A DNA stretch of 64,000 nucleotides from Sphaerochaetaceae bacterium (lineage in GTDB: Bacteria > Spirochaetota > Spirochaetia > Sphaerochaetales > Sphaerochaetaceae), in contig JAQQAR010000066.1 of NCBI GenBank assembly GCA_028532765.1, positions 1 to 64,000 on the forward strand, written 5' to 3'. The translations under genes and the position numbers were made by a program. Shown here piece after piece: positions 23,630 through 35,743 of the stretch. The notes beneath the pieces were generated by a model that saw nothing but the letters and a program-made list of their open reading frames with translations, had not been told where the DNA came from and did not search any database. The first letter of the stretch is position 1, and the number at the start of each line of letters is the position of its first letter.

Positions 23630-23824
23630 CTACATGGATATATTCTTACCGACAAAGTCATAGTTCTCAAGTGTTCCTATAACCAATAGAAACAACAATC
23701 CCAGAAATGGAAACAGGGGAGGGAAAGCATGCGTTAGAGCATGTCTATGACGAGGCCCATGACGAGGCCCATGACGAGGCCCATGAGGAGGCCCATGAGG
23801 AGGCCCATGACACGATCCAACCAA
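23630..23824 (-). CDS. Possible small His/Pro-rich single-pass membrane protein
   Basis: A 64-residue frame with five HGP(P/R) units at the N-terminus encoded by the 12-bp tandem repeat, then a plausible membrane helix (FPPLFPFLGLLFLLVIG) and a polar tail. The combination of a metal-binding-like histidine repeat and a clean helix is suggestive, but the only start is TTG 23824 with a weak ribosome site. The opposite strand is open too (67 residues with acidic EAHDEAH repeats). I cannot decide which, if either, is translated. Confidence 0.25.
   Translation of the reverse strand: MVGSCHGPPHGPPHGPRHGPRHGPRHRHALTHAFPPLFPFLGLLFLLVIGTLENYDFVGKNISM
23749..23808. repeat. 12-bp tandem repeat, five units
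   Basis: Three copies of GACGAGGCCCAT (23749-23784) are followed directly by two of GAGGAGGCCCAT (23785-23808). The unit is a multiple of three and stays open on both strands. The 353-base interval 23574-23926 around it holds no other gene I can support apart from the low-confidence small frame listed separately. Confidence 0.95.
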
Positions 23825-23926: not shown

Positions 23927-26239
23927 ATGCAGGATTCACAGCGTTGCATCGGAATATTCACCGCAGGCTTGGACGATGAATATCAGTCGGCCATCTGGCA
24001 TGCCATTGAAAGGGAAGCAGCAAAGCGGCAGATGGGAACCATCTCCTTTATTGGCTCCCGCCTTGGATCCCCTATTGCCAGTGAAGCCTCATCCAACCTC
24101 GCATATCACCTTGCATCCGAGCAGACCATTGATGGCCTGATTATTGTTGCCTCTTCACTCGCATCATATTTCACCACCATGGACCTGAATAAGTTTTTTG
24201 CTCCATGGTCCTCACTGCCCAGGGTATCGATAGGTATGCACATGCAGGGCATGAGTGACATTACTGCAGAAGGGGAAGAGAGCATGCGTGCTTTGGTGGA
24301 CCACTTGGTGACAGTTCATCACAGACGCCGTTTCGCTATAATTACAGGGCCGAAGACCCATGAGGAGTCAGTCAAGAGACTTCAGGCATGTAGACAGGCA
24401 CTTGCAGATAATGATATCCCTATTGACGAGAAACTGGTTAGATCAGGAACTTTTACCAATGAATCAGGGAGTGAAGTAGTACGATACTTCATGGAAGCGG
24501 GGTGCTCTTTTGATGCCTTGATCTGCCTCAATGACCAAATGGCTTTTGGTGCCATGCAAGAACTCTTGAAATGGAATATCCGTGTACCAGATGATGTTTC
24601 TCTAATTGGGTTTGACGGGATTGATCTTTCTCGTTACAGCATCCCCCCACTGACGACTGTAGTGCAGCCGTTGCATGAGATGGGTGTCATTGCGATCGAT
24701 ATTCTTGATAGGATCATGGCCGGAGGAGAAGAAGAACATATCTCCCTGCCATGTTCACCGGTAATCAGGGAGTCCTGCGGTTGCAATCCGCATGTGCACT
24801 TCACTCCTGGGCTCCATGAGATGCCGAGTTATGCCACACCAGCTGAACGTTTGGCAGTGAAAGACCTGGTCCTCCTTGTCCAGAGAGGTGATTATCACCA
24901 GATGATTGCCCGCCTTAACCGTGCGCTGGATGACACAGCCTCAGAGAGTGGTTCTCCCCATAGGTGGAACGAGTATCTCTCGGTGGTGGAGTATAAATCG
25001 CGCAATCAGAGTACGCTCAGCTCCAAGACACTCACAATGCTCATGGGTGCATCTCGTGCGTTGACAGGTGATAAGATTGGACGATTTCAGGCAGCAAGAC
25101 GGGTGGCAGCAGAAAATTCATTTGAAACCCTTAGGAAGGTGAGTGCCATGCTCAGTGGTACCTTTGAGATGGGGGAGTTGATCACCAACTTGAAACATGG
25201 TTTGCAGCTCTTTGGTATCGACCGTGGATATTTGGTAAGGTTCCTGAACCACAACCGAAAAGCTCGGCTTATGATGACCGTCCAACAGGAAGTACTCCCA
25301 CTATCAGCGTTCTCAATGGACTTTCCTGCCCAGCAGATCCTGCCCCCCAGCCTAAGCCAAGAGTGGAGGGCCCAGCGCTGGGTTTTCTTACCCTTGGTCT
25401 ATCTTGATGAGCCTCTTGGCTATTTTCTGGTTCCTTTTGGCACGGTCCGCCCTGCACTCTATGATGTATTGCAAGAGCAGATCTCGAGCAACCTGAAAGG
25501 CTCCTTGCTTCTCCAGCAGATCAGGGAACATGAGAAAAACCTTGAGGAACAGGTCGCCTTGCGTACACGCGATCTCTCCCAGGAGATCAAGCGGAGAACT
25601 GAACTGGAACAGGAAGTCATGGAGATTTCCACGAGGACCATGGAGCGTATCGGGCAGGAGCTGCATGATGACCTATGCCAGTATCTTCTTGGCATCTCGC
25701 TGCTCGCCTCATCGGCACATCAACAACTCGGAAGCAACCAGGAAACCCAGAAGGAGAGTCTCAGGAAAATCAGTGAGCATCTCAGTGAGGCCATTGGGAA
25801 GATCAAGACCATCAGCCGTGGACTGATGCCCATGGAATTGGAACCCCACAGTTTCCTGGAACGCCTGGAGGCCTTGGTGGGTGATAATCTTCGGTTGGTG
25901 GCAATCGATATCGATGTAAATGTAGACCCAGCCTTTTCCATTCAGGACAAGAACAGGGAGCTGAATATCTTCAGGATCGTCCAAGAAGCATTGACCAATG
26001 CCATAAAACACTCAAAGGCAAAGCATATAGAAATATCCTCAGCAAGAAAGCTTGATACTGAGGGTTCCTGTATCCTCTTCCTGGAAGTTCGCGATGATGG
26101 GACAGGCCTCCCTCAGCATATACAGGGAGAAGGGCTTGGCTTGAGAATTATGCAAAACCGAGCTGCAATGGCCGATGCAAAGCTCACCCTTGAGAGTGAT
26201 GAAGAGGGGACCACCGTGCTGATTGAATTCAAGGAGTAG
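23927..26239 (+). CDS. Hybrid sensor: LacI-type ligand domain fused to NarX-like histidine kinase
   Basis: A 770-residue protein with no membrane segment. Residues ~1-285 are a LacI/GalR-type sugar-binding domain without its DNA-binding helix-turn-helix: GIFTAGLDDEYQ, TIDGLIIVASS, RRRFAIITGPKTHEES, LICLNDQMAFGAMQELLKWNIRVPDDVSLIGFDGIDL, PLTTVVQPLHEMG. Residues ~390-530 look GAF-like, then a coiled coil, a HisKA_3 dimerisation helix with phospho-acceptor H580 in GQELHDDLCQYL, and a HATPase with N691 in EALTNAIKHS and a GEGLGLRIM G-box. It probably senses a cytoplasmic sugar and phosphorylates the regulator encoded 3 bases downstream. GAGGAGG precedes ATG 23927. Confidence 0.9.
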   Translation: MQDSQRCIGIFTAGLDDEYQSAIWHAIEREAAKRQMGTISFIGSRLGSPIASEASSNLAYHLASEQTIDGLIIVASSLASYFTTMDLNKFFAPWSSLPRVSIGMHMQGMSDITAEGEESMRALVDHLVTVHHRRRFAIITGPKTHEESVKRLQACRQALADNDIPIDEKLVRSGTFTNESGSEVVRYFMEAGCSFDALICLNDQMAFGAMQELLKWNIRVPDDVSLIGFDGIDLSRYSIPPLTTVVQPLHEMGVIAIDILDRIMAGGEEEHISLPCSPVIRESCGCNPHVHFTPGLHEMPSYATPAERLAVKDLVLLVQRGDYHQMIARLNRALDDTASESGSPHRWNEYLSVVEYKSRNQSTLSSKTLTMLMGASRALTGDKIGRFQAARRVAAENSFETLRKVSAMLSGTFEMGELITNLKHGLQLFGIDRGYLVRFLNHNRKARLMMTVQQEVLPLSAFSMDFPAQQILPPSLSQEWRAQRWVFLPLVYLDEPLGYFLVPFGTVRPALYDVLQEQISSNLKGSLLLQQIREHEKNLEEQVALRTRDLSQEIKRRTELEQEVMEISTRTMERIGQELHDDLCQYLLGISLLASSAHQQLGSNQETQKESLRKISEHLSEAIGKIKTISRGLMPMELEPHSFLERLEALVGDNLRLVAIDIDVNVDPAFSIQDKNRELNIFRIVQEALTNAIKHSKAKHIEISSARKLDTEGSCILFLEVRDDGTGLPQHIQGEGLGLRIMQNRAAMADAKLTLESDEEGTTVLIEFKE

Positions 26240-26242
26240 TGA

Positions 26243-26899
26243 ATGCCCAATATTGTTCGATTTCTGATTGTAGATGACCACCCGCTCTTCCGACAAGGTT
26301 TGGTGAGCGTCATAGAGAACGTGAGAACCTACCAAGTACGAGCTCAGGCAACCACCATCACTGAAGCACTTACTCTGCTGGATACGATAGAGGTCGATGT
26401 TGCCCTTGTCGATATCTCACTCCAGCAAGAGAACGGATTGGAGTTGGTTAAAACTCTCAAGGCAAGCAAGCCAGAGGTGCTTTCCATTGTTGTCTCCATG
26501 TATGATGAACTTATCTATGCATCCAGTGCACTCAAGGCAGGTGCACGTGGATACGTGATGAAGCAGGAAGCTGCTTCCTCAATCCTCAAAGCAATCGAGA
26601 CGGTACTTAAGGGCAAGGTCTATCTCTCAAATGATATGCGGGAGCGATTGTTAGATACCATGCTCTTGCAGGAATCCTCGCAGGAGAGTGACCCGGTTGA
26701 GCTGCTCAGTCTCCGGGAAATGGAAGTGCTTCGCTTGCTTGGGCAAGGCTGTGGTGTTTCTGAGATCGGGAAAACCCTTAATCTCTCGGTCAAGACGATC
26801 AATGTCTACCGGGATAATATCCGTCATAAGCTCTCCATCAGTGACGCAGGAACACTGCGCAAGTTTGCCATCAAATGGGTGAAGAGCAACGAGTTGTAA
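26243..26899 (+). CDS. NarL/FixJ-family response regulator
   Basis: A 218-residue regulator with a receiver domain (acidic pair D11/D12, phospho-acceptor D57 in VDVALVDISL, and the conserved K in GYVMKQEA) and a LuxR-type helix-turn-helix (LSLREMEVLRLLGQG, VSEIGKTLNLSVKTINVYRDNIRHKL). It is the cognate partner of the LacI-kinase fusion immediately upstream. The ABC sugar importer directly downstream is the obvious target. A short palindromic hairpin (26905-26922) follows the stop region. Confidence 0.93.
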   Translation: MPNIVRFLIVDDHPLFRQGLVSVIENVRTYQVRAQATTITEALTLLDTIEVDVALVDISLQQENGLELVKTLKASKPEVLSIVVSMYDELIYASSALKAGARGYVMKQEAASSILKAIETVLKGKVYLSNDMRERLLDTMLLQESSQESDPVELLSLREMEVLRLLGQGCGVSEIGKTLNLSVKTINVYRDNIRHKLSISDAGTLRKFAIKWVKSNEL

Positions 26900-26904
26900 G
26901 TAGC

Positions 26905-26930
26905 ATAGGACATTTGTCCTATTCATTTTC
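26905..26930 (+). terminator. Weak terminator after the response regulator
   Basis: ATAGGACA (26905-26912) and TGTCCTAT (26915-26922) form a hairpin followed by TCATTTTC. The U-tract is poor, so read-through toward the ABC genes is possible. Confidence 0.45.
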
Positions 26931-27046
26931 AAGGCAAAAGCCCAGTGGCGTCCCCCAAAGTGTTCACATAGCATAGTGATTGTAGTGCTCCCTATTCAGT
27001 ACAGGCGTTGTACGAATACACGGGAAATCTATGCAAGTCTCATTTG

Positions 27047-27086: not shown

Positions 27087-28436
27087 ATGAAACGGAACAT
27101 GCGTATTGTAGTCAGTCTGTTACTGATTTGTTGCATGAGTCTCTCACTGTTTGCAGCCGGCCAGGCAGAGGCAGCGAAACCTGCTCGTAAGGTGATCAAC
27201 CTGTGGAGCTTCACTGATGAAGTCCCCAAAATGTTGGAGAAGTACAAAGAACTGAATCCTGATTTCGATTATGAGATCAACACAACCATCATCGCTACCA
27301 CTGATGGTGCATATCAACCAGCACTTGACCAGGCATTGGCAAGTAGTGGTGAGAATGCTCCTGACATCTATTGTGCTGAGTCTGCATTTGTACTCAAGTA
27401 CACCCAGGGCGACGCAGCTCACTTTGCAGCTCCCTACAAGGATCTTGGAATTGATGTAAACGCCAAGCTTAAGGAAGCTGACATTGCCCAGTACACTGTT
27501 GATATCGGTACCAATCCTGATGGTGATCTGGTAGGCCTTGGTTACCAGGCTACCGGTGGTGCATTTATCTACCGCCGCTCTATTGCAAAGGACGTATGGG
27601 GTACTGACGATCCTGCTGTAATCACTTCAAAAGTCGGTCCCGGTTGGGACAAGTTCTTCAAGGCTGCAGAAGACCTGAAGAAGAAAGGATACGGAATCAT
27701 CAGTGGTGATGGAGACATCTGGCATGCCATCGAAGGCAGCAGCGATAAGGGCTGGATTGTAGACGGAAAACTCTACATCGATCCCGATCGTGAAGCATTC
27801 CTTGATGTTGCAAAGATGCTGATTGACAAGGGTTACCACAATGATACCCGTGACTGGACCGATGCATGGTTCGCTGACATGAAAGACGCCGGCGAAAAGC
27901 AGATCTTCGGTTTCTTCGGCCCAGCTTGGTTGATCAACTACGTCATGGCTGGTAACAGCGGCGGTTCAGCACCTGGTGAAGGCACCTATGGTGACTGGGC
28001 AGTTTGTGAACCTCCTGTTGGCTTCTTCTGGGGTGGTACCTGGGTACTTGCAAACGACAAGAGCCCTGTCAAGGACGCAGTTGGTGAGATCATCGAGTGG
28101 ATTACCCTCGACAGTTCCAACACCGGTCTGCAGTACTACTGGGCCAATGGTACACTCAATGGTCCTGGTGGAACCAAGGATACCGTTGCTTCCGGTACTG
28201 TCATGAGCAAGAGTGACGGAACCCTGGACTTCCTCGGTGGACAGGATATGTTCGACGTATTCGTTCCCGCTGGCAAGTTTGCTACCGGCACCAACAAGAC
28301 CCAGTATGATGAGACCATCAACATGTACTGGCGTGACCAGGTCCGCGAATACAGCTACGGAAACAAGACCCGCAGCCAGGCCATCGCAGACTTCAAGCAG
28401 CAGGTTGCTGACAACCTCGCAATTGACGTTGATTAA
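27087..28436 (+). CDS. ABC transporter sugar-binding protein (CUT1 family)
   Basis: A 449-residue family 1 extracellular solute-binding protein. The signal peptide is spirochaete-like (SLSLFAAGQAEAAKPA, no lipobox cysteine obvious). The mature chain starts VINLWSFTDEVPKMLEKYKELNP, has APDIYCAESAFVLKY and many aromatic residues typical of oligosaccharide sites, including WDKFFKAAEDLKKKGYG and GGTWVLANDKS. AAGGAGG precedes ATG 27087. It heads an operon with two CUT1 permeases and a GH3 glycosidase, so a beta-linked oligosaccharide is the likely ligand. Confidence 0.92.
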   Translation: MKRNMRIVVSLLLICCMSLSLFAAGQAEAAKPARKVINLWSFTDEVPKMLEKYKELNPDFDYEINTTIIATTDGAYQPALDQALASSGENAPDIYCAESAFVLKYTQGDAAHFAAPYKDLGIDVNAKLKEADIAQYTVDIGTNPDGDLVGLGYQATGGAFIYRRSIAKDVWGTDDPAVITSKVGPGWDKFFKAAEDLKKKGYGIISGDGDIWHAIEGSSDKGWIVDGKLYIDPDREAFLDVAKMLIDKGYHNDTRDWTDAWFADMKDAGEKQIFGFFGPAWLINYVMAGNSGGSAPGEGTYGDWAVCEPPVGFFWGGTWVLANDKSPVKDAVGEIIEWITLDSSNTGLQYYWANGTLNGPGGTKDTVASGTVMSKSDGTLDFLGGQDMFDVFVPAGKFATGTNKTQYDETINMYWRDQVREYSYGNKTRSQAIADFKQQVADNLAIDVD

Positions 28437-28449
28437 TGGATCAATGATT

Positions 28450-28478
28450 GCCAGGTGTAGGTGACCCCTGCACCTGGC
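28450..28478 (+). promoter_or_regulatory. Intercistronic hairpin between binding protein and permease
   Basis: GCCAGGTG (28450-28457) and CACCTGGC (28471-28478) form an 8-bp stem followed by TTGTTTTG. Such elements after binding-protein genes commonly stabilise the upstream mRNA or partly terminate, giving more receptor than permease. Confidence 0.7.
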
Positions 28479-28548
28479 TTGTTTTGCTCCAAGCATCGCA
28501 GGGAAGATATCGGTCGATGCACGGTGAATTTTTCTGGAGGACTTGCTC

Positions 28549-29514
28549 ATGCGCAAAAACAACATCAGCTATGCTAAGTACGGATATCTGTTTTCCATTC
28601 CTTTCGTGCTTGCCTTTCTTGTTTTTAATCTGTACCCGACGATATATACTGTTGTTATTGGGTTTACCGACCTCAGGGGACTGGGGCGAACTACCTTCAA
28701 GTTCTTGGAAGATCCGTTCCAGAATTACAAAAGTATCTTAAACAACGCGACCTTTTTACGGTCACTACAAACTACCTTTATTATTTGGATTTTCAATTTC
28801 ATTCCCCAGGTTCTCTTGGCACTGTTGTTGACCGCTTGGTTCACCAATAGAAGACTGAAGGTTAAGGCACAGGGCTTGTTCAAGGTATTAATTTATATGC
28901 CGAATATCATTACCGCTGCAACCATCGCAATCCTGTTCAACTCCCTTACCGGCTATCCCAAGGGACCGATCAATGACTTACTGATGAAAGTCGGCATCCT
29001 GGATGCACCATCGAACTTCCACCTGCAGAGTGGAACCGCCCGCGGTGTGGTATCGTTCATCCAGTTCTGGATGTGGTATGGCCACTCCATGATCATCCTG
29101 ATCGCTGGTGTGTTGGGTATCAATCCAACCTTGTTTGAGGCTGCTGAGGTAGATGGGGCAACACCTGCCCAGATTTTCTTCAGGATAACCTTACCCAGAC
29201 TGAAAACCATTTTGCTATATGTTCTGGTAACCGGCCTTATCGGCGGTATCCAGATGTTCGATATTCCCAGGCTCTTCCTTTGGGGAGGACCGGACAATGC
29301 AACACTTACCTCGAGTGTATTCATCTACAACCAAGCCTTCGCGGGAAGCTATCTCTACAACCGAGCATCGGCAGCAAGCATGATAGTCTTCATCATTATC
29401 CTGGTTCTCTCAGGCATCATGTTCTATTCCATGCGTGATAGGGCTGAGATCAAGCTCAGAAAATTTGAAAAGAACCGGCTGAAGGAAGAAAAGAGGATGG
29501 GGGGAGTACGATGA
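28549..29514 (+). CDS. ABC sugar permease, MalF/UgpA type
   Basis: A 321-residue inner membrane protein with six predicted helices. The cytoplasmic EAA loop that docks the ATPase reads EAAEVDGATPAQIFFRITLPRL. The N-terminus (KYGYLFSIPFVLAFLVFNLYPTIYTVVIGF) is typical of CUT1 permeases. ATG 28549 lies 8 bases after GGAGG; an in-frame TTG at 28543 is less likely. It overlaps the next permease by 4 bases (ATGA). Confidence 0.93.
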   Translation: MRKNNISYAKYGYLFSIPFVLAFLVFNLYPTIYTVVIGFTDLRGLGRTTFKFLEDPFQNYKSILNNATFLRSLQTTFIIWIFNFIPQVLLALLLTAWFTNRRLKVKAQGLFKVLIYMPNIITAATIAILFNSLTGYPKGPINDLLMKVGILDAPSNFHLQSGTARGVVSFIQFWMWYGHSMIILIAGVLGINPTLFEAAEVDGATPAQIFFRITLPRLKTILLYVLVTGLIGGIQMFDIPRLFLWGGPDNATLTSSVFIYNQAFAGSYLYNRASAASMIVFIIILVLSGIMFYSMRDRAEIKLRKFEKNRLKEEKRMGGVR

Positions 29515-30356
29515 GAGGAATGAGAGCAACTACCAACCTGAAAAAGACAGGAATCTATATTGTGTGCATTTTCTTGGCACTCTTGAGCATATTCCCTTTC
29601 TGGGTCATGTTCATGAACGCAACACGCAGTACCTATGAGATACAGCAGAGTTCCATTGGCCTGATTCCTTCCAAGTACTTGATGAGCAACTGGCAGATAC
29701 TCCAAGGAAAGACCTTCGACCCCATTGTAGGTTTTATAAACTCCATGATCATCAGCACAGGGGCAACCCTTTGCGCGGTGTACTTCTCATCGCTTACAGC
29801 GTACGCCCTTGTTGCCTACAGCTGGAAACTACGTCAGCCATTCTTTACCTTCATCATGGCCGTTATGATGATTCCAACCCAGGTAAGTGGTATAGGGTTT
29901 TACCAGTTCATGTACCGCATCGGATGGACCAACAGCCTTTGGCCCCTGATCATACCTGCCACAGCAACCCCTGCAATGGTATTTTTCATGCGGCAGTACC
30001 TGATGGCATCGCTCTCGTTGGATATTGTTGACTCTGCGAGAATAGACGGTTCCAGGGAGTTCAATACCTTCAACAGGATCATACTGCCTATCATGAAACC
30101 TGCTATGGCAACCCAGGCAATCTTCACCTTTGTATTCAACTGGAATCGTTTGTTTGAACCCTTGATTCTTCTTACCGATGGGGATAAGTATACCATGCCC
30201 ATCATGGTAAGCCTGCTCAGGGGAGATATCTACAAGACAGAGTACGGTGCAGTCTACCTGGGGTTGTCGATGACCGTTCTGCCCTTGTTCATCGTCTACT
30301 TCTCTCTCTCGAAGCATATCATTGCTGGAGTTGCACTTGGGGCACTGAAAGAGTAG
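29511..30356 (+). CDS. ABC sugar permease, MalG/UgpE type
   Basis: A 281-residue partner permease with six helices and the EAA loop DSARIDGSREFNTFNRIILPIMKPA. A long periplasmic loop follows the first helix, as in MalG homologues. It overlaps the upstream permease. No ATPase gene is present in the cluster; CUT1 systems often share an MsmK/UgpC-type ATPase encoded elsewhere, which is inferred here. Confidence 0.93.
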   Translation: MRGMRATTNLKKTGIYIVCIFLALLSIFPFWVMFMNATRSTYEIQQSSIGLIPSKYLMSNWQILQGKTFDPIVGFINSMIISTGATLCAVYFSSLTAYALVAYSWKLRQPFFTFIMAVMMIPTQVSGIGFYQFMYRIGWTNSLWPLIIPATATPAMVFFMRQYLMASLSLDIVDSARIDGSREFNTFNRIILPIMKPAMATQAIFTFVFNWNRLFEPLILLTDGDKYTMPIMVSLLRGDIYKTEYGAVYLGLSMTVLPLFIVYFSLSKHIIAGVALGALKE

Positions 30357-30402: not shown

Positions 30403-32757
30403 ATGCAGCAGAATATGGAACGTGCCTTGGAACTGCTTAGGAAGATGAGTATCGAAGAGAAAGTCTCCCAGTTGGTTTCTGCATGGCTTGAGATAGGAAT
30501 AGATGGATCATTGCATGTACGCGAGTATGGGCAGGCTGAATTGCGTAGTGTAGATATCAAGGCTGATGTGCTGGGTAAAGGCATCGGCCAATTCACCCGT
30601 CCCTATGGAACGATGGCAAATGATCCAGTCCAGCAAGCTAAGGCGATCAATGAGCTGCAGCGGTATCTTATCAAGGAGACCCGCTTGGGTATTCCAGCTC
30701 TCCTGCATGAGGAGTGCCTGACCGGTGCCATGGTGAAGGGAGCAACGATTTTTCCCTCTGCATTGAATTATGGCAGTACCTGGGAACCTTCCTTGGTGGG
30801 CAACGTAGGAAAAGCAATCGGGGACGAACTCAGGAGTCTTGGGGTACATCAGGGGCTCGCTCCAGTCCTGGATGTTGCTCGTGATGCCCGTTGGGGGCGC
30901 TTAGAGGAGACCTACGGGGAAGACCCTTACCTGTGTGGAGTTATGGGAATCTCGTATGTACAAGGCCTGCAAGGAGAGAGGCGAAGTCCTCTTGCAACAC
31001 TGAAGCATTTTGTCGGGCACTCTGCCAGTGAGGGAGGGAGAAACCATGCGCCGGTGCATATCGGTCCCACAGAACTGCAGAATACCTTTGCACTTCCCTT
31101 CGAGATGGTTGTCCGTCATGCACACCCTGGTTCAGTGATGCCGGCCTATCATGACATTGATGGAGTTCCTTGTACCAGTAATCGCTCCTTGGTGACAGAC
31201 TTGCTTAAACAGAGATGGGGTTTTGATGGATTGGTTGTTGCTGACTATGAGGCAGTTGTGCAATTGTTCCACGACCATCGTGTTGCAGGAGATATGGCTG
31301 AAGCCGCCGCTTTGGCATTCAATGCTGGTATGGATATCGAATTACCTGGGTATACCGTATTCAAGGAAGGGTTGATCGAGGCCTTGTATCGTGGCTTGAT
31401 CAAGGGAGATGCACTTGATGAGGCAGTGCTCCGTGTATTGGAAGAGAAGTACAACCAAGGCGTTTTCGAGCATCCGTTCATCAAGGAAGAGGCGATCGAA
31501 CTGGGTACAGAGAAGAGCCATGCACTGGCAGTAGAGGTAGCAGAGAAGTCTCTTGTCCTACTCAAGAATGATGGGGTTCTTCCTTTGAAAAATGCAAGAT
31601 CAGTTGCCCTTATTGGGCCTCTTGCTGACCACCCATATGCAATGTTCGGAGGATACTCGACCCCGATTCATCTCCAGGGATCCCATGGCCCTGAAGAGAC
31701 AGTCCCTCCGCAGGCAAGGACCATTCGTAGTGCTCTCTCTGAGGCTCTGGGAGACATCCCCTTGACATTTGAACCAGGGTGTATGCTCTACGAGAGCAAG
31801 GTGGAGAAAGCCATCTTCTTCCCTGGCGATGTTCCAGACGATGGAGAGGGATCCCATGAGCTTAGCGGCGATACCCAAGGGATAGAGAAAGCGGTCAAGG
31901 CTGCGTCTTCTGCAGATGTAACGGTCATGGTTGTTGGTGATATCGCTGGGCTGTTCCGCCAAGGAACAGTCGGTGAAGGATCCGATGCCGATAGCCTTAA
32001 GCTCCCCGGGGTGCAAGAAGAACTCCTGGATGCTGTGCTGGCTACAGGAAAACCTGTGGTGGTTGTTCTGGTGAGTGGAAGACCATACACCATCCATGAA
32101 GCGGTTGATCATGCGAGTGCCATTCTTGCTGCTTGGCTCCCTGGTGAGGGGGGAGGCGAAGCTATCGCACGTACCTTGGTAGGATTGAACAATCCAGGTG
32201 GGAAAACGACACTCTCATTTCCCAAGTGTGCTGGTTCAATGCCGTACGCATACAACCACTTCAAGAAGGCAGGTGGGTTAAAGATCCAGCCACAGTTTGG
32301 AGCCTTGTATCCCTTTGGGCATGGACTGAGTTATACCACTTTCAGCTGGGATGATTTCCAGGTGGAAAACCCAATGATTCAGGGCGATGAAGAGTTCCGT
32401 TTCTCCCTTTCAGTGAGAAACGACGGGACCTGTAGTGGTGATGAAATCGTGCAGGTCTATGTGCAGGATAAGGTTGCCTCCATTGTTCGTCCTGTGAAAG
32501 AATTGAAAGCTTTCAGCCGTGTTTCATTGCAGCCGGGAGAGCAGAAACGTCTCTCCTTTACCCTGCCTGCGGATATACTCTCGTTTGTTGGTAGCGATGC
32601 AAGAAGAGTCCTGGAGAGCGGTGCTTTCTCTCTTCTTGTTGGCAAGAGTAGTGAAGATATAGTTTTCCGTGAAGAAATTGCAGTACTCGGGAAATCGAAA
32701 ATATTTCCCAAGGATTGGCGATATATCTCTTCTGTTTCTGTCTCTGATTGTAAGTAG
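30403..32757 (+). CDS. Glycoside hydrolase family 3 beta-glycosidase
   Basis: A 784-residue GH3 enzyme, most like beta-glucosidase/beta-xylosidase. The N-terminal barrel has the nucleophile aspartate D281 in GLVVADYEAV and the substrate-binding KHFVGHS. The alpha/beta sandwich follows with LLKNDGVLPL and GEGSDADSLKLP, and a C-terminal fibronectin III-like domain contains FSLSVRNDGTCSGDEIVQVYV. No signal peptide is visible, so it acts in the cytoplasm on sugars imported by the adjacent ABC system. AAGGAG precedes ATG 30403. The exact linkage is unknown. Confidence 0.93.
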   Translation: MQQNMERALELLRKMSIEEKVSQLVSAWLEIGIDGSLHVREYGQAELRSVDIKADVLGKGIGQFTRPYGTMANDPVQQAKAINELQRYLIKETRLGIPALLHEECLTGAMVKGATIFPSALNYGSTWEPSLVGNVGKAIGDELRSLGVHQGLAPVLDVARDARWGRLEETYGEDPYLCGVMGISYVQGLQGERRSPLATLKHFVGHSASEGGRNHAPVHIGPTELQNTFALPFEMVVRHAHPGSVMPAYHDIDGVPCTSNRSLVTDLLKQRWGFDGLVVADYEAVVQLFHDHRVAGDMAEAAALAFNAGMDIELPGYTVFKEGLIEALYRGLIKGDALDEAVLRVLEEKYNQGVFEHPFIKEEAIELGTEKSHALAVEVAEKSLVLLKNDGVLPLKNARSVALIGPLADHPYAMFGGYSTPIHLQGSHGPEETVPPQARTIRSALSEALGDIPLTFEPGCMLYESKVEKAIFFPGDVPDDGEGSHELSGDTQGIEKAVKAASSADVTVMVVGDIAGLFRQGTVGEGSDADSLKLPGVQEELLDAVLATGKPVVVVLVSGRPYTIHEAVDHASAILAAWLPGEGGGEAIARTLVGLNNPGGKTTLSFPKCAGSMPYAYNHFKKAGGLKIQPQFGALYPFGHGLSYTTFSWDDFQVENPMIQGDEEFRFSLSVRNDGTCSGDEIVQVYVQDKVASIVRPVKELKAFSRVSLQPGEQKRLSFTLPADILSFVGSDARRVLESGAFSLLVGKSSEDIVFREEIAVLGKSKIFPKDWRYISSVSVSDCK

Positions 32758-32777: not shown

Positions 32778-32820
32778 GGCAACGTACTTGGTCATCCCTG
32801 CGGCCGGGTACGTTGCCTCT
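32778..32820 (+). terminator. Intrinsic terminator of the sugar operon
   Basis: GGCAACGTAC (32778-32787) and GTACGTTGCC (32808-32817) form a perfect 10-bp stem with a 20-base loop region, followed by TCTTTACTTTT. Confidence 0.8.
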
Positions 32821-32890
32821 TTACTTTTCCTTGTGGATGTAACCTTGCAATTCTTTCACAGTGGACTATCATTATATACGAGGTGCCACG

Positions 32891-33745
32891 ATGAATATGT
32901 TGAGAGATGCTCAATATGCGGGTTCCTGGTATCCAAAGGATCCAGAGCTATTGCGACTCTTGGTAACAGAGTCGATAGACGAGAGCAAGAAGCGAAAAAC
33001 CTATCAGAGAGGCCCCTATAGGTTCGCTGTTCTCCCTCACGCAGGGTTGTTCTACTCAAGCAGTGGAATTGCCCCTTTTTTCACCGCCGGACTTGGTTCA
33101 ATCGAGCGTATCCTGGTGATCAGCCCGAGCCACTATGCAACTCTCCCTCCCGATACCATCGTCAGTGCACCACTGTGTGGAATGAGGACTCCCCTCGGTG
33201 ATGTTCAGGCTTTCAATCTTGCGAGTGCACAGAGAGAGTGGTTCTCTGCAATACAGAGTGAACATGCCCTGGAGATGGTCCTGCCATACATAGCAGCACA
33301 AGCGAGTCCTGTAAAGGTTGCCCTTGCCATGATATCCCGCTTCACTGAGGCAGAAGCAATCGAAAAGCTTGCTGGTCAGTTGGTACAGGAGCTTGGAAGA
33401 GAGGACCTTGAGATGGGAAGAACGGTAATTATTGCAAGTAGTGACTTTACCCACTATGGGCCCCGGTTCGCCTACACACCCTACGGAAGCAGGGCAGAGG
33501 GCAGGGTAAAGGAAGATGATTTAAGCTTGGCTTATCTACTCAGTGAGGGAAGGGTCTCAGAAGCACTTGCCTTCTGTACCGCAAAGCAATCAACTGTATG
33601 CGGCTACGCCGCTGCCTTGTTGGTCTCATCCATCGCCGGGCGGATGCAATGCAAGGGGTGGGTAGCAGACTATTACACATCAAGCGATGTGTCTTCGTCT
33701 CATGACGCGAATTTTGTCGCCTATTCAACGATTCTTTGGAGGTAG
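32891..33745 (+). CDS. amrB: AmmeMemoRadiSam system protein B (MEMO1 family)
   Basis: A 284-residue MEMO-family protein, a dioxygenase-like fold whose bacterial role is not settled. Family features are YAGSWYP near the start, AVLPHAGLFYSSSGIA, ISPSHYA, ASSDFTHYGPRF and CGYAAALLV. GAGGTG lies upstream of ATG 32891; the frame is open ten codons further. It leads a three-gene cluster with AMMECR1 and radical SAM proteins, the exact composition of the conserved AmmeMemoRadiSam system. Confidence 0.9.
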   Translation: MNMLRDAQYAGSWYPKDPELLRLLVTESIDESKKRKTYQRGPYRFAVLPHAGLFYSSSGIAPFFTAGLGSIERILVISPSHYATLPPDTIVSAPLCGMRTPLGDVQAFNLASAQREWFSAIQSEHALEMVLPYIAAQASPVKVALAMISRFTEAEAIEKLAGQLVQELGREDLEMGRTVIIASSDFTHYGPRFAYTPYGSRAEGRVKEDDLSLAYLLSEGRVSEALAFCTAKQSTVCGYAAALLVSSIAGRMQCKGWVADYYTSSDVSSSHDANFVAYSTILWR

Positions 33746-33748
33746 GGA

Positions 33749-34309
33749 ATGAACCGTGTTGACCAACAGACTCTCTTGATGCTGGCTAGGGAAGCCATAA
33801 CAAGTACACTTACCCACTCTGATACGCCGATCTATGATCGACTGAAGAGGGAAGATAGACCTCCTTTTTCTCATGAGGCAGGGTGTTTTGTCACGATTCA
33901 TACCACCGAAGGGGCCTTACGTGGCTGTATCGGCAACCTTTGGGGAAGGGGCCCTCTCTGGCAGGAGGTACCCAAACTGGCAAGGGAGTCTGCTTTCAGT
34001 GACCCCCGTTTTCACCCTCTCAAGCAAGAGGAACTAGAACAGGTAGTGCTCGAAATCTCCCTGCTTTCCAAGATGCAAGTCATTGATAGTTGGAAACAAA
34101 TACGACTAGGAGTGGATGGGGTGCTGCTGAGTCATGGATACCATCGTGCAGTTTTCCTCCCTCAGGTGGCAACAGAGCAGGGATGGGATCTACAGACCAT
34201 GCTCAGTCAGCTTTCAAGGAAGGCTGGCCTTGAAAGCGATGCCTATACAGACATGGCTTGTCGTTTTGAAGTGTTCCAAGCCGAAGTGTATGTAGAGGAC
34301 TTGTCGTGA
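33749..34309 (+). CDS. amrA: AmmeMemoRadiSam system protein A (AMMECR1 domain)
   Basis: A 186-residue AMMECR1-domain protein. It has the LRGCIGNLWG motif that defines the family (usually LRGCIG), DPRFHPL and GVLLSHGYHRAVFLPQVATEQGWD. It lies 3 bases after the MEMO gene, with GGAGG overlapping that gene's end. The biochemical function is unknown; its constant pairing with the other two proteins suggests a shared modification pathway. Confidence 0.92.
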   Translation: MNRVDQQTLLMLAREAITSTLTHSDTPIYDRLKREDRPPFSHEAGCFVTIHTTEGALRGCIGNLWGRGPLWQEVPKLARESAFSDPRFHPLKQEELEQVVLEISLLSKMQVIDSWKQIRLGVDGVLLSHGYHRAVFLPQVATEQGWDLQTMLSQLSRKAGLESDAYTDMACRFEVFQAEVYVEDLS

Positions 34310-35268
34310 GTACAGCAGCGTATCTTGTTTGTGATTTCTGTTACCGTCACTGCAGACTGAAGGATGGAGAAATTGGTTTTTGTGGGGTTCGGGAACGTTC
34401 TGGAGATACCATTTTTACCCATAATTATGGAGGGTTGGTCTCAAGTGCGATAGATCCTGTTGAGAAGAAGCCTCTCTACCACTTCCTGCCGGGGACCAAT
34501 ACACTCTCCATTGCAATGTTTGGATGCAACCTGACTTGCACCTTCTGCCAGAACTATGCGATCAGCCAGAGAGCGTGGGAGGCTGGAGCCCAGCGAACCT
34601 ATTACACTGCCAGGGAAGTGGTTCAGCTTGCTCGGGATAACCGGTGTCCTTCCATCAGTTTTACCTATAGCGAGCCCTTGGTTTGGCAGGACTATATGGT
34701 AGAGGTGGCAACCTTTGCAAAACAAGAAGGACTTAAAACCATCATGGTTACCAATGGTAGCTTCAGCGAAGAAGCTTTGAACCGGATCAGTCCATTCATC
34801 GATGCATTCAATATTGACATCAAGGGGGATGAGACATTCTACCGGGACTACTGTGGGGGAAGCTCTCGTCCGGTGTGGAAGGCCATTGAACACATCGCTC
34901 CAAGCAAAGCTCATCTGGAGATAACCACCATGGTTATGGAAGGGGGACATACGAAACAAATGATATCCTCCATTGGAGGGCGCCTTTACTCAGCAGGTGT
35001 ACAGGTCTGGCATCTGAGTCGATACTTTCCTCGCTACAAGGAACAGAAGAGGGAGACCAGCGAGCATTTCTTGCAAGAGATGGTCAAGGTAGCCAAAGAT
35101 TCCCAGATCCCTTTTATCTACCCAGGAAACTCTTCCTTGGACCAGAATACCTACTGCCCACATTGCAAGACCTCTTTGGTGCGCCGCTCCTGGGTATTCC
35201 GTGAGAGTATTATTGACCACTCACACTGTCCTGAATGTGGGCGTCATATCTACGGTACCTGGTCATAA
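34306..35268 (+). CDS. amrS: AmmeMemoRadiSam system radical SAM enzyme (AmrS)
   Basis: A 320-residue radical SAM protein with GCNLTCTFCQNY holding the CxxxCxxC cluster ligands. An N-terminal zinc-ribbon-like CDFCYRHCRLKDGEIGFCGVR and a C-terminal CPHCKTSLVRR...CPECGRHIYG ribbon frame the barrel. DPVEKKPLYHFLPGT is also a signature of this family. The start GTG 34306 overlaps the AMMECR1 stop by 4 bases (GTGA). It is a relative of pyruvate-formate-lyase activases, but the substrate is undetermined. Confidence 0.93.
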   Translation: MSTAAYLVCDFCYRHCRLKDGEIGFCGVRERSGDTIFTHNYGGLVSSAIDPVEKKPLYHFLPGTNTLSIAMFGCNLTCTFCQNYAISQRAWEAGAQRTYYTAREVVQLARDNRCPSISFTYSEPLVWQDYMVEVATFAKQEGLKTIMVTNGSFSEEALNRISPFIDAFNIDIKGDETFYRDYCGGSSRPVWKAIEHIAPSKAHLEITTMVMEGGHTKQMISSIGGRLYSAGVQVWHLSRYFPRYKEQKRETSEHFLQEMVKVAKDSQIPFIYPGNSSLDQNTYCPHCKTSLVRRSWVFRESIIDHSHCPECGRHIYGTWS

Positions 35269-35272
35269 CTTC

Positions 35273-35301
35273 TTGCAATCGGAAACGTAGAACGATACTA
35301 T
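35273..35301 (+). promoter_or_regulatory. Promoter placing the transcript start at the ATG of the C_GCAxxG gene
   Basis: TTGCAA (35273-35278), 17 bases, TACTAT (35296-35301). Only 7 bases separate the -10 from ATG 35309 and no Shine-Dalgarno sequence is present, which predicts a leaderless mRNA. Confidence 0.6.
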
Positions 35302-35308
35302 TACCCCT

Positions 35309-35743
35309 ATGGAAACAACAACTACAACGCAATATGTAAAGCGTGCCTACGCTTTCAGGGAGAAGGGTTACAACTGTGCACAGGCGGTTGCCTGCAGCTT
35401 TGCCGATGTCGTGGGAATCGACGAGAAGAACCTATTCATCATGAGCGAAGCCTTCGGCGGGGGTATGGGCGGCCATAAGGCAACTTGCGGAGCTGTCAGC
35501 GGAGCAGTGCTGATCATCAGCTTGCTTACCAGTGGTGGTAGTGTAGAAGCTGCAACAAAGCAGACTTCCTATAACTATGCTGGGGAGATTGTGGACGGTT
35601 TCCTTGAGCAGAACGGCACACTTGTATGCAGTGAACTCAGGGGTGATGAGAGTGGTATTGTGTTGCGAACTTGTGACCTGTGTGTTGAGGATGCTGTTGT
35701 TTTGTTGCATAAACTGTTGCAAAAGAATGAAAAACTCTTTTGA
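35309..35743 (+). CDS. C_GCAxxG_C_C family protein
   Basis: A 144-residue protein matching the small family named for its spaced cysteines: GYNCAQAV, then FGGGMGGHKATCGAVSGAVLIISLL, then C-x-EL and a terminal RTCDLCVEDAV. The cysteine set suggests a redox or metal/iron-sulfur function, but none is established. It follows the AmmeMemoRadiSam operon by 40 bases with its own promoter. Confidence 0.88.
   Translation: METTTTTQYVKRAYAFREKGYNCAQAVACSFADVVGIDEKNLFIMSEAFGGGMGGHKATCGAVSGAVLIISLLTSGGSVEAATKQTSYNYAGEIVDGFLEQNGTLVCSELRGDESGIVLRTCDLCVEDAVVLLHKLLQKNEKLF

Follow-up and report, generated by a model that had tools for sequence, protein, structure and literature searches.

We analyzed a 64,000-nucleotide stretch of DNA (the window) from a Sphaerochaeta-like genome of 3.16 Mb (G000). 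A complete gene on its forward strand (23927..26239, +) encodes a histidine kinase of 770 residues with a LacI-type sensor, and the gene of a NarL/FixJ-type response regulator (26243..26899, +; 218 aa; Pfam Response_reg and GerE) begins 3 bases past it. The regulator has its receiver aspartate at D57, a LuxR-type helix-turn-helix (HTH), and the retained residues D11, D12, D57, and K107. A 12-bp tandem repeat (23747-23811; 5.4 copies of ATGACGAGGCCC) precedes the kinase gene by about 115 bases; it is present in two close relatives and nearly or wholly missing in others.

The sensor position of the kinase is occupied by a LacI/GalR-type ligand-binding domain (residues 6-286; 23942..24784, +). 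Pfam places Peripla_BP_3 on residues 124-284 (E 3e-29), and residues 6-292 align with LacI-family structures in the PDB (best E 2e-30), which amounts to the entire ligand domain. Its sugar pocket keeps R151, N202, and D230 without exception across 15 kinase homologs, and R151 aligns with Arg197 of LacI. An N-terminal LacI HTH has no Pfam match in the protein, and the frame holds only 11 more open codons upstream of the ATG (781 vs 770). The catalytic end consists of HisKA_3 (residues 573-637, E 8e-10) and HATPase_c (residues 678-769, E 3e-12), and its motifs are intact, as H580, N691, and D723 are invariant in the same 15 homologs. We looked for both a membrane segment and an external placement of the sensor and found neither: the highest 19-residue Kyte-Doolittle mean in the kinase is 1.33, versus 2.56 in the adjacent permease. 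The protein also scores far under the NarX/NarQ cut-offs and, with no membrane segment, lacks the transmembrane nitrate sensor of those kinases. An earlier, sequence-only reading of this DNA had proposed an HTH-free LacI/GalR ligand domain at the sensor position of a NarX-like kinase without membrane helices, followed after 3 bases by a NarL-type regulator and then by sugar ABC genes and a GH3 enzyme, and each of these assignments is borne out by the family and structure matches.

Between the sensor and the catalytic domains, residues 290-560 (24794..25606, +) form a linker, possibly with a coiled coil, that is kept among orthologs. The same reading had called this region “GAF-like,” a label that our searches did not support: we found no Pfam match to GAF or any other family, and no PDB match, with the single sequence or with a profile of nine orthologs. 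An AlphaFold model of the full kinase, built on an alignment with four close sequences, had a mean pLDDT of 41.5 and was not used for a fold search. The sensor domain ends in the motif R-E-S-C-G-C (residues 281-286; 24767..24784, +). The general form, RxSCGC, occurs in 42 of 46 LacI sensors fused to other outputs versus 0 of 15 HTH-LacI proteins, counts that come from related rather than independent sequences, so that their p-value overstates the contrast.

Downstream of the regulator are the genes of a sugar importer and a glycosidase, all on the + strand. The first encodes a sugar-binding lipoprotein (SBP; 27087..28436), recognized by a weak PDB match to a cellobiose-binding protein (8bfy, E 1.5e-9), a hydrophobic signal, and its orthologs; two ABC permeases follow (28543..29514 and 29511..30356; both BPD_transp_1), and then a GH3 glycosidase (30403..32757), probably beta-xylosidase/alpha-L-arabinosidase-like. 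GH3 enzymes vary in specificity. The nearest relatives of this one are beta-xylosidases, its PDB match is to beta-xylosidase 7zb3 (E 4e-194), and its top-scoring NCBIfam family is NF052329 (beta-xylosidase/alpha-L-arabinosidase), at 802 bits under a cut-off of 1050. No signal peptide was seen in it. A terminator-like hairpin (32778..32817, +; a 16-pair stem, then a T-rich tail) closes the operon. A second strong terminator-like hairpin (28450-28478) lies past the SBP gene and ahead of the first permease gene, where it probably lowers permease expression relative to that of the binding protein. The cluster has no ATPase gene; sharing of an ATPase is common for such importers, and we assume that this one uses a shared ATPase. 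Past the operon, genes for Memo-like, AMMECR1, radical SAM, and C_GCAxxG_C_C proteins stand in a row (32861-35743), a set that is widespread and little understood.

The arrangement is conserved. Among 100 genomes of the family, kinase orthologs at 50-100% identity occur in three genera, and the order kinase-regulator-SBP-permease-permease-GH3 is kept wherever the contig reaches, in each of these genera and at kinase identities as low as 50%. As orthologs this distant retain both the fusion and the gene order, the joining of a LacI domain to a kinase is not a chance event of one genome.

Seven bases past the end of the regulator gene begins a 16-bp palindrome, TAGGACATTTGTCCTA (26906..26921, +), which we propose as the operator of the regulator from the alignment of loci and from genome counts. 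In the aligned DNA between regulator and SBP, CTAGGACAAATGTCCTAG and variants of it stand at or just past the regulator stop codon of all 13 loci, and the flanking DNA around them has mostly diverged; information content is 1.77 bits per column in the palindrome versus 0.91 in the downstream flank. Of the 14 genomes that bear orthologs, 13 have a single copy of the pattern TAGGAY-N4-RTCCTA and the remaining one (G086) has two; the pattern is absent from both genomes that carry only paralogs. Its reversed control pattern has 0-3 occurrences per genome. Within the window, the palindrome is the sole match to the site pattern with fewer than two mismatches. A partly conserved block at a fixed distance from it (26930..26945, +) is tentatively a second, degenerate copy. 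No site of this type lies upstream of the kinase-regulator pair, and the pair is thus probably not under the same control. At four loci (L054, L058, L059, and L062), the stop codon of the regulator gene, TAG, also supplies the opening TAG of the TAGG half-site.

Beyond the palindrome is a weak promoter-like pair, TGGCGT-17-TAGCAT (26946..26974, +), at near-fixed spacing from it. The first T, the A, and the last T of the -10-like hexamer are invariant in 10 representatives; a promoter consensus search gave no match at this element. The near-fixed distance of TAGCAT puts the center of the palindrome at about -68 from the inferred transcription start, with the possible weaker copy near -44.

Elsewhere in the family and the class, diverged LacI-kinases about 32% identical to the window protein lie in clusters of other composition. 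In one (L140, genome G345), LacI-kinase, regulator, and GH3 gene are found together around a different type of ABC importer, and the GH3 enzyme belongs to the same subfamily as that of the window, at 50% identity. In four others (L061, L062, L141, and L142), kinase and regulator precede a gene for GH52, a family known for beta-xylosidase activity, with an extra GH3 beside it in L061 and an extra GH43 in L062. An exact TAGG-N8-CCTA stands beside the regulator in L140, L061, and L062, and a copy with one mismatch does so in L141 and L142; L141 has an additional exact site before its SBP gene. About 0.005 exact sites would be expected per region. The erosion of two further copies provides natural controls: the regulator of L063 is cut after the receiver domain, and L064 has a stop within the kinase frame. 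Neither copy has a site next to the regulator, and neither is near any gene related to the transporter or GH3 genes of the window. From the glycosidase genes and sites of the diverged clusters, together with these eroded copies that lack a site, it follows that TAGG-N8-CCTA is likely the target of this regulator family and that a xyloside, or a xylose-containing plant sugar, is the probable ligand of the sensor. The tie between the sensor system and the GH3 and ABC genes, which the sequence-only reading had drawn from one locus, is now a strong one, supported by the conserved operon order, the dedicated palindrome, and the diverged clusters with other xylosidases.

We therefore read the locus, with fairly good confidence though from sequence comparison, as a soluble two-component system that would sense an imported plant sugar and whose regulator would activate the SBP-permease-permease-GH3 operon at the palindrome. 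The importer would take in a xylo-oligosaccharide, which the cytoplasmic GH3 enzyme would break down; either the oligosaccharide or the sugar released from it would bind and close the LacI domain. Closure would reach the dimeric kinase by way of the RxSCGC junction and then the helical linker, shifting its kinase or phosphatase activity and so setting the phosphorylation of the regulator. The phosphorylated regulator would then bind TAGGAC-N4-GTCCTA at about -68, and perhaps the weaker copy at about -44, and activate the weak promoter of the operon.

The sign of control is the part of this scheme with the most serious competitor. The regulator could instead be a repressor that blocks the operon promoter until sugar comes, and the possible second site close to the -35-like element would suit such a role; we nevertheless think repression unlikely, since activators commonly bind where the strong site lies, some 68 bases ahead of the inferred start, and the operon promoter is weak and has no consensus match. 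The position of the palindrome thus suggests an activator, a preference for activation over repression that follows the position of a predicted promoter. A different ligand is less probable again: the LacI domain might respond to a protein (the way CcpA responds to HPr) or to a phosphorylated metabolite, in which case the system would signal carbon status and not the presence of one particular sugar. CcpA structures are indeed among the PDB relatives of the sensor, and the RxSCGC junction might also transmit a redox signal, but R151, N202, and D230 of the pocket are invariant in the kinase set, and a system bound to one sugar operon through one genomic site is poorly suited to be a global carbon regulator. 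The least probable alternative, that the palindrome is an RNA hairpin (a terminator or processing site) rather than a DNA operator, draws on its weak terminator-like score (a stem of 7 pairs) and its start 7 bases after the regulator gene, and we set it aside because TAGGA and TCCTA show an invariant sequence and no compensating changes, several loci (e.g., TAGGACAAACATCCTA) have C/T and G/A changes in the arms that weaken or abolish pairing, the spacing to the TAGCAT element is near-fixed, and the diverged clusters retain TAGG-N8-CCTA with unpaired middles.

The kinase belongs to a wider set of proteins. Searching 296 genomes of the phylum Spirochaetota with the middle region of the kinase, we found the same LacI domain on HisKA_3 kinases, on HisKA hybrid kinases with receivers (L075, L077, L082), on methyl-accepting chemotaxis (MCP) signalling domains (L072, L073, L086, L093), on GGDEF domains (L078, L090), on a LuxR-type HTH with or without PAS (L076, L095, L096), and on an AraC HTH (L080, L083, L089, and L065 in the window's own genome). 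The MCP fusions are apparently cytoplasmic sugar chemoreceptors. Outside the phylum, a Chloroflexota protein (L041) combines LacI, GAF, and HisKA domains; a search of that one genome turned up a single LacI-linker-kinase protein alongside numerous LacI proteins and kinases of the ordinary sort. In a tree of 61 LacI domains, a single branch splits the 46 fused domains from the 15 HTH-LacI proteins (support 97/64, with the branch in 97% of bootstrap trees and a low SH-aLRT value); the 15 repressors all come from one genome, several on long branches, and the fusions were found using the window kinase.

Two further proteins of the same genome drew our attention. At L065:6304-9495 (contig C93), a gene upstream of two paired ABC permease genes encodes an RxSCGC LacI-type sensor, a long middle region, and an AraC HTH at the C-terminus; by eye, the middle region has a kinase-like stretch without the phospho-acceptor histidine, and frames of about 1050-1100 aa that resemble it occur in many genomes of the family. 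By its predicted architecture, this is a one-protein relative of the kinase system. At L120:190-2466 (contig C60), a LacI repressor with HTH and ligand domain carries a C-terminal SBP_bac_1/SBP_bac_8 solute-binding domain, apparently a transport-type binding protein within a transcription factor.

We lean, by a modest degree, toward regarding the HTH-free LacI-type domains as a single clade whose members act as plug-in sugar sensors in the cytoplasm and carry the RxSCGC junction as a hallmark. In Spirochaetota, the domain would have been re-attached to at least six outputs (NarX-like kinase, hybrid kinase, chemoreceptor, GGDEF, LuxR, and AraC), with the clade reaching a Chloroflexota kinase, so that all of the main signalling routes would carry information on intracellular sugars; among these, the kinase branch would act via TAGG-N8-CCTA. 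Seen this way, the earlier description of a one-component switch turned into a two-component one stands in outline and is too narrow, since the sensor clade is already split from the HTH repressors and has many outputs.

Each half of the kinase has familiar counterparts. With the LacI/GalR repressors (LacI, PurR, CcpA, RbsR) it shares the fold of the ligand domain, the pocket positions, and the cytoplasmic location, but it has no HTH and its output is a histidine kinase; the RxSCGC junction is likewise absent from the HTH-LacI proteins of its own genome. With kinases of the NarX/NarQ/UhpB type and their NarL/FixJ regulators, it has in common HisKA_3, HATPase_c, and a LuxR-type regulator partner, yet it lacks their transmembrane or periplasmic sensor. 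Periplasmic-binding-protein (PBP) folds also drive histidine kinases in the PBP-domain hybrid two-component systems of Bacteroides, in XylFII-LytS, and in LuxPQ; those kinases sense outside the membrane, whereas the window kinase would sense inside. Domains of the Periplas_BP type occur in cyclic-di-GMP proteins as well, where according to a review they may bind sugars, without tested function (PMC8846402). There too a LacI-like domain sits on a signalling output, which in that case is a cyclase, and the GGDEF fusions in our tree belong to the same sensor clade as the window kinase. We found no description of a LacI-histidine kinase fusion in the open-access literature.

Sugar-sensing histidine kinases are usually seen as watching the cell exterior, and LacI domains as repressors. 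At this locus, the two are joined in the cytoplasm, and the conserved single-site regulon makes ligand, kinase, and DNA target jointly testable. The wider clade suggests that in spirochaetes a single type of sensor supplies input to kinases, chemotaxis, cyclic-di-GMP, and transcription, and it amounts to a naturally occurring collection of soluble sugar sensors whose outputs are interchangeable.
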